Positions 3,711 through 17,868 of a DNA stretch of 20,187 nucleotides are shown in pieces. A program made the translations under genes and the position numbers. The first letter of the stretch is position 1, and each line of letters starts with the position of its first letter. Below the pieces are notes generated by a model, which did not search any database, was not told where the DNA came from, and was given only the letters and a program-made list of their open reading frames with translations. The DNA comes from a virus, in the IMG/VR virus record IMGVR_UViG_3300042391_001807, positions 1-20,187 of that record; one strand, written 5' to 3'.

Positions 3711-3719
3711 TTTTGTTTT

Positions 3720-3746
3720 AAAAAAAGGGGATAATTAAATACCCCC
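3720..3746 (-). terminator. Terminator-like hairpin between the 323-aa and 221-aa genes
   Basis: The minus strand reads GGGGGTA, six-nt loop, TATCCCC (7-bp stem with one G-T wobble; 3740-3746 with 3727-3733), followed by seven T (complement of 3720-3726). It is 9 bp after the 323-aa stop codon and its T-run ends 9 bp before the next start codon. It may attenuate rather than stop transcription, since the downstream genes have no visible promoter of their own. Confidence 0.7.
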
Positions 3747-3755
3747 GTATTTATG

Positions 3756-15950: not shown

Positions 15951-15982
15951 TTTGGAAATAAATATAATAATTTTTATCTTTG
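15951..15982 (+). promoter_or_regulatory. Rightward promoter 1 at the divergent centre
   Basis: TTTG (15951-15954), 20-bp spacer, TATCTTTG (15975-15982): an excellent match to the Bacteroidota promoter pattern. Transcription would start near 15989 and run into the hairpin-rich region. Confidence 0.8.
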
Positions 15983-15999: not shown

Positions 16000-16035
16000 T
16001 TTGTTTTTTTTATTCAAATATTATTATTACCTTTG
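16000..16035 (+). promoter_or_regulatory. Rightward promoter 2 before the structured region
   Basis: TACCTTTG (16028-16035) is a good -7 box. The nearest TTTG (16000-16003) is 24 bp away, slightly longer than usual, so this is weaker than promoter 1. The bases after the -7 box (GCAAAAAATAT) match those after the helicase promoter exactly. Confidence 0.55.
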
Positions 16036-16049
16036 CAAAAAATATTTTT

Positions 16050-16103
16050 ATGACGTGTGGCTATCTTAAAAGATTCACGTTGCGGTTTAACCACCTAAGC
16101 TAA
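16050..16103 (+). CDS. Possible mini-ORF (17 aa) behind promoter 2
   Basis: The frame MTCGYLKRFTLRFNHLS starts 15 bp after the -7 box, exactly the distance and nearly the leader sequence found before the helicase start. It ends TAA directly before the ATG of another mini-ORF. No family recognised. It overlaps the first hairpins of the RNA candidate, so it may be only a chance frame. Confidence 0.25.
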   Translation: MTCGYLKRFTLRFNHLS

Positions 16104-16190
16104 ATGGAAGAGGGCATTGCTATTGTAATGAAGACCGCCAGAGCATGGCTAGTTAAGGTTCTAGCCAATTTCACAAATGTAGACAGATAA
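16104..16190 (+). CDS. Possible mini-ORF (28 aa)
   Basis: The frame starts with the ATG directly after the previous TAA (TAAATG) and begins MEEGIAIVMKTARAW. The predicted peptide is short, amphipathic and basic in the middle. Coding is doubtful because the same bases form hairpins; the abutting stop/start is the only positive sign. Confidence 0.2.
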   Translation: MEEGIAIVMKTARAWLVKVLANFTNVDR

Positions 16191-16289
16191 ATAAAATACT
16201 CTGTCGAATAATCAATAAGGATTTCAGTGATAAATCAAAAAAACTTACAGCAGGCCTTTGGATTCGGTGTTTTTCCGCTGCTGGTCCTA

Positions 16290-16336
16290 CTTACTTCCTC
16301 TTTCTTTATTAAAAGAGGGGGTAAGGGGGTGTTTTT
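16290..16336 (+). terminator. Terminator-like stem ending the RNA candidate
   Basis: CTTACTTCCTCTTT (16290-16303) pairs with AAAGAGGGGGTAAG (16312-16325) over 14 bp with two G-T wobbles and an 8-nt loop. A T5 run (16332-16336) comes six bases later, so the U-run is not ideally placed. It would separate the RNA transcript from the helicase gene, which has its own promoter. Confidence 0.6.
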
Positions 16337-16410
16337 ACACATTGTAAAAAACATTTGTTGCGTTTTTACAGTTTGAACCACGTACATACAAAAACTGTAA
16401 TTACCGCAAC
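16330..16410. repeat. Two inverted repeats between the RNA candidate and the helicase promoter
   Basis: The first is TGTTTTTACA / TGTAAAAAACA (16330-16339 with 16343-16353, one bulged base, 3-nt loop). The second is a composite stem: GTTGCG/CGCAAC (16357-16362 with 16405-16410) outside and TTACAGTTT/AAACTGTAA (16366-16374 with 16392-16400) inside, with a small internal loop and a 17-nt apical loop. TTTTTACA occurs in both left arms. They could be RNA structures, protein-binding palindromes or part of a replication origin; the sequence alone does not decide. The rest of the gap up to 16443 is plain AT-rich DNA. Confidence 0.65.
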
Positions 16411-16443
16411 AGTAAATATTTATTAAAATAATAGTAATTATAT

Positions 16444-16474
16444 TTTGTAGTTTAATATTTTATTTGTATCTTTG
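16444..16474 (+). promoter_or_regulatory. Bacteroidota-type promoter for the helicase gene
   Basis: TTTG (16444-16447), 19-bp spacer, TATCTTTG (16467-16474). The -7 box ends 15 bp before the helicase ATG, giving a very short leader without a Shine-Dalgarno sequence. Confidence 0.8.
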
Positions 16475-16488
16475 CAAAAAATATAAGT

Positions 16489-17868
16489 ATGTATAAATTA
16501 AGGGATTACCAAAGTAAAGCTATTACAGAAGGATTAAATATACTAAACAATACTAAAGCATCTAGAGAGTTAATTGTACTTCCTACAGGTGCCGGTAAAT
16601 CTATTGTTATAGCAGAGATTGTAAAGCAGTTAGGTGAGCCTATCGTGATATTACAGCCCTCAAAAGAGTTGCTTGAACAGAACTATCAGAAATTTATTAA
16701 TGTTGGCGGTAACGCTTCAATTTACTCAGCTTCCGCTGGGTGTAAAGAATTAAGTAATGTTACTTTTGCAACAATAGGCTCGATAAAAAAGGCAGTCAAT
16801 GAATTAAAAAAGCTTAAAGTGACCAAAATAATTATTGATGAGTCACACATTGGAGTTAAGGGAGGTTCTCAACTAAGATTATTTTTAAATAGCCTTGGTA
16901 TAACTAATGTTTTAGGACTAACAGCAACACCCTTTATACTAGCTAGTACAATGAATGGTGCCGAACTAAAGATGCTTACAAAGATAAAGAGTAAACTTTT
17001 TACTAATATATCTTACGTTGAGCAAATACATAGTATGTTAGATAATAGGTATTGGACACCTTTAGAGTATAGAGTTGTAGAACAAGACGACACTTTTTTA
17101 AAAATAAACTCTTCTGGATCAGATTACACAGAGGATAGCATGCAGAGTTTTTACGAGAATAATGATTTACAATCACAAATAGTAGATAATGTTGAGCATT
17201 GTATTAGTGAGGGTTCAAAATCAATACTTGTATTTGTACCAACAATAGAAGAGGCTGATAGACTAGCTTCTAGAATAACTAATTCTAAGTCTGTAAGCTC
17301 TTTGACAAATAAAAAAGAAAGAGACGATATTATCAATGGTTTCAAGAATGGGCAAATAAATGTTGTGATAAACGTAGGTATTTTAACTACAGGCTTTGAT
17401 TACCCGGAATTAGAAACTATTATATTAGGTAGATCAACAATGTCTTTTGCTTTATACTATCAAATGATAGGTAGAGGTGTAAGAATACACGATAATAAGA
17501 ATAAAACTGTTGTTATTGACCTTAGTGAGAACTATAATAGATTTGGGAAGGTTGAAGATTTTACTGTTGATTTTGTAGAGGGTTATGGATGGGGGTTATT
17601 CAAAGGAGAGAGCTTAATAAGCAATTATCCAATAGAAGCTAAACACAGACCAACAAAAGCGAATCTAGTAAAAAAGAAAAATATAGCAGTGCCTGTACTA
17701 CAAGTAGGAAGCAATAAAATGCCTTTTGGTAAATATAAAGACTTTATGCTGCTTGATATTTTAAAGAAAGACAAAGGTTATTTAGTTTGGATGTACGAAA
17801 AGTTTACTTTTTACCCTAATCAAAAATGGCTTAAGCTAGAAATAGCCACTTTGTTAAATTTATCATAA
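16489..17868 (+). CDS. SF2 DNA helicase with C-terminal DUF3820-like module
   Basis: This 459-aa protein has the full superfamily 2 set: RDYQ (residues 5-8), motif I LPTGAGKS (31-38), motif II IDESH (116-120), motif III LTATP (144-148), VFVPT (248-252), motif V GILTTGFDYP (297-306) and motif VI QMIGRGVRI (325-333). This is the layout of RecG/UvsW/Rad25-type ATP-dependent branch-migration or duplex-unwinding helicases. The C-terminal part (about 409-440, MPFGKYKDFMLLDI then YLVWM) resembles DUF3820, a small module more often found beside exonuclease-type or unknown domains. Promoter and short leader lie directly upstream, RecA directly downstream. A UvsW-like role in recombination-dependent replication is an inference. 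Confidence 0.88.
   Translation: MYKLRDYQSKAITEGLNILNNTKASRELIVLPTGAGKSIVIAEIVKQLGEPIVILQPSKELLEQNYQKFINVGGNASIYSASAGCKELSNVTFATIGSIKKAVNELKKLKVTKIIIDESHIGVKGGSQLRLFLNSLGITNVLGLTATPFILASTMNGAELKMLTKIKSKLFTNISYVEQIHSMLDNRYWTPLEYRVVEQDDTFLKINSSGSDYTEDSMQSFYENNDLQSQIVDNVEHCISEGSKSILVFVPTIEEADRLASRITNSKSVSSLTNKKERDDIINGFKNGQINVVINVGILTTGFDYPELETIILGRSTMSFALYYQMIGRGVRIHDNKNKTVVIDLSENYNRFGKVEDFTVDFVEGYGWGLFKGESLISNYPIEAKHRPTKANLVKKKNIAVPVLQVGSNKMPFGKYKDFMLLDILKKDKGYLVWMYEKFTFYPNQKWLKLEIATLLNLS

Follow-up and report, generated by a model that had tools for sequence, protein, structure and literature searches.

A candidate structured RNA gene conserved ahead of the RadD-like helicase in a group of crAss-like phages

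The DNA analysed here (the window, 20,187 nt of a viral record of IMG/VR) lies entirely within a longer contig, IMGVR_UViG_3300042322_000140 (128,227 bp), at about 61.3-81.4 kb, and this contig is probably complete, as it carries a 230-bp repeat at both ends. Two divergent blocks of genes make up the phage genome, the products of which include a DnaB-like helicase, a DNA polymerase of family A, a chaperonin and a ribonucleotide reductase. Its capsid and terminase are nearest to those of Cellulophaga phages phi4:1 and phi17:2 (47%, 35%) and of phage csAssE-Sib, with weaker links to the terminases of Crassvirales. The phage appears to be a relative of the crAss-like phages, and the group appears to infect Bacteroidota. 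The segment of interest is located between a gene coding for a 107-aa protein, on the minus strand, and that of a RadD-like SF2 helicase, its constant downstream neighbour (Table 1). The idea that this helicase would be of the R-loop-resolving UvsW type was not adopted, as its best matches are RadD proteins.

Table 1. Position in the window of the candidate RNA gene, its structural elements and its neighbours
Feature	Position	Strand	Details
107-aa protein, upstream neighbour in the core clade and L096	15589..15912	-	
Distal promoter	15951..15982	+	TTTG 15951-15954, 20-bp spacer, -7 box TATCTTTGC at 15975 (TATCTTTG, 15975-15982); from sequence
Proximal promoter, -7 box TACCTTTGC / TACCTTTG	16028..16035	+	From sequence; predicted start about 16042
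Structured RNA, conserved body, P1 to end of U-tract	16052..16336	+	Homologues and covariance models
P1	16052..16081	+	16052-16057 with 16076-16081; inner stem 16063-16066 with 16071-16074
P2, GGU/ACC hairpin	16084..16095	+	16084-16086 with 16093-16095; variable, missing in the two most divergent members
Unpaired conserved motif AAAUGGAAGAG	16102..16112	+	AAUGGAAGAG invariant in 15 of 15 aligned sequences
P3	16113..16136	+	16115-16120 with 16125-16130; flanking GG/CC 16113-16114 with 16135-16136; pairing analysis, MAFFT and model-based alignments
Invariant motif CGCCAGAG	16136..16143	+	First C pairs in P3
P4	16147..16166	+	16147-16152 with 16161-16166; pairing analysis, MAFFT and model-based alignments
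P5, closing over P6 and P7	16171..16230	+	16171-16174 with 16227-16230; 3 of 4 pairs changed on both sides; 92% of cells paired
Possible pseudoknot, over A-rich linker 16237-16243	16179..16248	+	GUAG 16179-16182 with UUAC 16245-16248; weak
P6	16183..16204	+	16183-16187 with 16200-16204; 5 of 5 pairs changed on both sides
P7, length-variable	16210..16223	+	16210-16213 with 16220-16223; 3 of 4 pairs changed on both sides
P8	16248..16283	+	CAGCAG 16248-16253 with CUGCUG 16278-16283; near-invariant 17-nt loop GGAUUCGGUGUUUUUCC 16260-16276
P9, intrinsic terminator	16286..16336	+	14-bp polypyrimidine/polypurine stem 16290-16303 with 16312-16325; outer pairs 16286-16288 with 16327-16329; U-tract 16332-16336; stem retained by 14 of 15 members
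Separate helicase promoter, -7 box TATCTTTGC	16467..16475	+	22-26 nt 5' of the ATG in 6 of 6 genomes
RadD-like SF2 helicase, constant downstream neighbour	16489..17868	+	

The original prediction had singled out 295 bp, flanked by the divergent promoters and the helicase, as devoid of a normal gene, and this is what we find: 3 to 10 stop codons interrupt each of the six frames, and no reading frame is conserved. A 17-codon frame of the window loses its ATG in the homologues L003 and L008, and a small protein gene was rejected because stops are present in every frame across six homologues. The region is also, as had been noticed, richer in G and C than its surroundings: GC content is 38% for 16042-16336, but 14% for the 110 bp that precede it and 22% for the spacer that leads to the helicase. 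The window as a whole has 32%, and 9.7% of its 295-bp segments are equally GC-rich. Folded as a single sequence it reaches -77.7 kcal/mol, compared with -67.0 kcal/mol for shuffled versions (z -2.2; 4 of 200 shuffles as stable). This stability is only moderately unusual, so that homologues were needed, and these put the structure far beyond chance. Identity to the window amounts to 66-91% in the RNA, 41-79% in the spacer behind it and 49-63% at the third codon positions of the helicase, and conservation tracks stems and unpaired motifs, with none of the dependence on codons that would have spoken for a protein. We therefore predict that a structured RNA of about 290 nt is encoded here by a stand-alone gene, the boundaries, strand, structure, conservation, lack of an open frame and constant position of which can all be read from the sequence.

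Homologues were collected with the helicase as a first bait in IMG/VR, the RNA being plainly recognisable upstream of the helicase homologues. Further contigs were added via the P8 loop GGATTCGGTGTTTTTCC and the pattern AAATGGAAGAGN{12,38}CGCCAGAGNA, and a covariance model of ten 5' domains (R1) found the divergent members L096 and L136; the E-values of such models are rough, and exact-pattern scans miss variants. The RNA is present upstream of the RadD-like helicase in all 20 IMG/VR contigs of the phage group, where the helicase is 44-100% identical, and its start is found 395-592 nt from the helicase ATG in every one of them. Separate models of the 5' and 3' halves, run on 80 loci, recovered it at none of the 60 more distant ones, where two 3'-half hits (E 0.8-0.9) are at chance level. 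A search based on RecA agrees: contigs with a RecA at least 87% identical carry the RNA, and none was found in those where this value falls to 48-57%. Among 84,980 GTDB genomes the pattern matched 22 times, with no match scored as a member by the covariance model; 395 Bacteroidota genomes, searched without a positive control, gave none; and blastn against 50,697 phage records returned weak short matches, none spanning the RNA. There was likewise no significant match in the whole genome of phi4:1 and in parts of phi17:2, phi14:2 and csAssE-Sib.

The six hairpins described at the outset all exist, as P1, P3, P4, P6, P8 and the terminator P9, and comparison of homologues adds P2, P5 and P7. P1 is paired in 100% of the cells, with 8 of its 10 pairs changed on both sides; its stem varies freely while its loop, UAAA in the window, is GAAA or GGAA, of the GNRA type, in most or nearly all homologues. 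At the base of P1, G-U pairs account for 9 of 13, and as the G-U pairs observed would be C-A on the opposite strand, it is the plus strand that is the RNA. The loop of P8 is near-invariant, with variants in L069, L085, L092 and L136. A long GCGGU/ACCGC helix, proposed by the minimum-energy fold, fails in L005, L009, L013 and L022 and is missing in L096 and L136; the local hairpin P2 is supported in its place.

Covariation in homologues, the absence of which had been named as a reason to abandon the idea of a structured RNA, is present in both domains. In plain MAFFT alignments, which were fitted to no structure, 89.5% of the cells of the 5' domain are paired, against 32-39% when the partners are slid, and 17 of its 24 pairs are changed on both sides; the 3' domain displays 81% against 29-53%, with 14 of 22 pairs changed on both sides, the 81% being an underestimate since one pseudoknot bracket was misplaced in that count. 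The covariation scores of both domains were reached by none of 500 shuffles, it being understood that shuffled and slid controls allow just partly for relatedness. Model-based alignments, which lean towards structure and the second of which includes two chance hits, raise pairing to 92.6% (5' domain) and 95.3% (3' domain). The GUAG/UUAC pseudoknot, almost invariant and paired in 95% of the cells, has a score reached by 36 of 500 shuffles; it is consistent with the alignment, if weakly.

Tandem promoters had been claimed ahead of the hairpin chain, and of five homologues checked, four do retain both -7 boxes (at 15975 and 16028). The distal box is conserved in L003, L004, L005 and L008, and L009, the most divergent, keeps only the proximal one; counted as TAnnTTTG boxes 5' of the RNA, there are two in five of six genomes checked and one in L009. 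TTTG and TAnnTTTG make up the sigma-A promoter consensus of Bacteroidota (PMC7366714). The -33 box of the proximal promoter is uncertain, as the TTTG at 16000-16003 leaves a long spacer of 24 bp. Placed at the head of a block of replication genes, tandem promoters would be compatible with early and abundant expression. At the other end of the gene, the long terminator-like stem that was thought to close the chain is recovered as P9, the 3' strand of which (G5-N1-3-G5) is conserved while its 5' strand drifts via G-U pairs; the T-rich tract that follows is weakest in L136, and L096 lacks the G-runs. Between this terminator and the promoter of the helicase, window 16360-16440 contains repeated TTACAGT/ACTGTAA-like motifs, also present in L005, which are possible operator sites.

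This arrangement invites the question of whether the RNA would act in cis, the nascent transcript governing read-through of P9 as an attenuator, or as a processive antiterminator of the put type, in an early helicase-recA operon. Such a role would account for the start of the RNA 395-592 nt ahead of the helicase ATG in 20 of 20 contigs, for the adjacency to the helicase retained in L136, where the divergent junction is 5.3 kb away, and for the upkeep of P9. Yet a conserved promoter of its own precedes the helicase, past the terminator, in all six genomes checked, so that read-through would not be needed, and about 290 nt is long when compared with known put or attenuator elements. We consider control in cis unlikely, and the separate promoter of the helicase beyond the terminator leads us to favour an RNA acting in trans, the site of which would be kept through synteny. 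What counts against action in trans is that the RNA is found directly before the helicase even where an array of 18 tRNAs separates it from the divergent junction, as a cis element would show likewise. This array (L136:365-4223) occupies the interval from the divergent junction to the RNA, its order being largely that of phi4:1. ARAGORN identified no tRNA in the window, and the core clade has no tRNAs near the RNA.

The original prediction held that the RNA could be assigned to no known class, and suggested a search of Rfam. No family of Rfam 15 was matched at gathering score in the window or in the whole 128 kb genome, lax thresholds on the window giving chance-level matches only, and the RNA was recognized neither by ARAGORN nor by Rfam as a tRNA or tmRNA. 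With its homologues, compensatory changes, kept promoters and terminator and lack of an open frame, a structured phage RNA outside the known classes is what the data describe. The closest parallels are perhaps ROOL and GOLLD, orphan structured RNAs of phages and prophages, some 600-800 nt long, able to assemble into RNA-only oligomers and often near tRNA islands (PMC12286853). The present RNA resembles them in being phage-encoded, highly structured, without an open frame and of unexplained function, and, in the divergent L136 but not in the core clade, in its siting behind 18 tRNAs. It differs in its length of about 290 nt from proximal promoter to terminator, in matching neither Rfam model and in lacking a large architecture with multiple pseudoknots. 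Like 6S RNA it would be a stand-alone structured RNA of a kind able to target a host machine, but its fold, a chain of separate helices, differs from the long hairpin opened by a central bubble, and there is no Rfam match. With HK022 put and other antiterminator RNAs it shares the position of a structured RNA heading an early phage operon; it is however much longer, is closed by a conserved terminator of its own and is followed by a gene with a separate promoter. No TROVE/Ro protein, as in the Ro60/Y RNA system, and no reverse transcriptase of a retron or DGR was found in five genomes. The open-licence papers searched name no structured RNA in crAss-like phages of Bacteroidota.

The phi29 pRNA is another structured RNA of a phage, of similar size class, and the presence of terminase and portal genes a few kb away might evoke an RNA involved in DNA packaging. 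There is however no match to pRNA in Rfam, the phage groups are unrelated and the structures differ; furthermore, TerL and portal belong to the crAss-like type, for which no RNA ring is known. A packaging role seems to us extremely improbable.

An origin transcript was first suggested by a nearby GC-skew minimum and by the G5-N1-3-G5 end. As in ColE1 RNA II or mitochondrial CSB II, a structured transcript with G-runs and a U-tract at its end would persist as an R-loop and prime replication. In three genomes the P8 loop and the cumulative skew minimum are 430-710 nt apart, so that the RNA of the core clade is near it, and the G-runs with their U-tract exist in 14 of 15 members, the U-tract being weak in L136; the GC skew of crAss-like phages has been read as a sign of bidirectional replication (PMC9523058). 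In the phage of L136, nevertheless, skew reaches its minimum at the divergent junction (14,428), 5.3 kb away from the RNA (19,718); phi4:1 again has the minimum at the junction, and its helicase is 5.7 kb from there. The RNA therefore stays with the helicase and not with the skew switch. Skew follows gene direction in these phages, L096 is without G-runs, and there is no match in Rfam. The skew positions in the phage of L136 and in phi4:1 weaken a role as origin or primer, which we regard as very unlikely.

Regulation by base pairing deserves consideration as well, since a near-invariant loop of 17 nt in P8, or another unpaired strand, could be the seed of an sRNA directed at host or phage mRNAs, and the G-rich 3' end matches C/U-rich stretches near some phage gene starts. 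The small RNAs treated in one review of phage sRNAs are largely antisense, trans-acting or sponge RNAs, in phages of other hosts (PMC12197685). Here, however, the best conserved match in the phage, near the gene for a 221-aa protein, coincides with the C-run and U-tract in an intergenic terminator; no complement of the P8 loop of at least 11 nt exists elsewhere in three phage genomes; and no antisense target in phage mRNAs stood above chance. Pairing with rRNA was not above chance either, the fit of the G-rich end to the 3' end of 16S rRNA being equalled by 10 of 60 shuffles. As neither a loop complement of that length nor rRNA pairing above chance was found, a simple antisense role is not indicated, and we hold a base-pairing sRNA to be quite unlikely.

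We are thus inclined, by a modest preference, to see in this locus a single RNA gene, the product of which would be a free structured RNA acting in trans as a scaffold or decoy. Transcription would begin at the tandem promoters, near 16042, and stop at the strong P9, releasing a molecule of about 290 nt. Its 5' domain would consist of the GNRA-capped P1, of P2, P3 and P4, and of the invariant strands AAUGGAAGAG and CGCCAGAG; its 3' domain, of P5, which encloses P6 and P7, then of an A-rich linker and of P8, the loop of which is near-invariant. Large invariant unpaired motifs of this kind are a feature of structured RNAs. Expression, its timing, action in trans and a partner are inferences: the RNA most likely acts in trans during infection, and the invariant unpaired strands and the P8 loop may present a surface to which a protein, a ribonucleoprotein or further copies of the RNA bind, as befits a scaffold or decoy rather than a regulator working by base pairing. 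A more adventurous reading, possible in our opinion though doubtful, is that of a new structural class, present in every known member of the group and forming a ribonucleoprotein or RNA-only particle which would seize or block a host machine early in infection by an undescribed mechanism.

The catalogue of structured RNAs in tailed phages is poor. For the present family the structure is supported, the ends are defined, candidate binding sites are invariant and the place in the genome is fixed, which allows a direct design of probing, pull-down and deletion experiments. It would join the few phage RNAs, such as ROOL, GOLLD and pRNA, the conservation of which implies an important role, here an unexplained one.

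Other non-coding elements were noticed in these phages. IMGVR_UViG_3300042322_000140 carries a permuted tmRNA (RF04321, 64 bits) at L144:12789-13051 (genome 112789-113051), and its relative G012 an ordinary one (93.7 bits) at L148:18445-18767. At L143:8623-9757 (genome 88623-89757), 1,135 nt without an open frame of at least 50 aa hold further candidate non-coding RNAs; this segment is conserved in G003, with 79% over 566 nt, while G012 retains blocks of it. Another conserved non-coding stretch (L143:12424-12762, L148:3923-4358), possibly a second family of structured RNAs, is preceded in G012 and G003 by a promoter of the TAT-TTTG type and contains G-runs, followed by GGAGTCTACCCTATGCGTGTG-AAAAAAACACGAACCCC. 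In phi4:1, about 1.3 kb between the tRNA array and the helicase (90930-92310; L160:9930-11310) is nearly gene-free and nearly identical in phi17:2; it contains hairpins and terminator-like elements, and homology to the RNA was not found there. Finally, window 3711-3755, between structural genes of 323 and 221 aa, forms a conserved terminator-like hairpin with a C-run and a U-tract.
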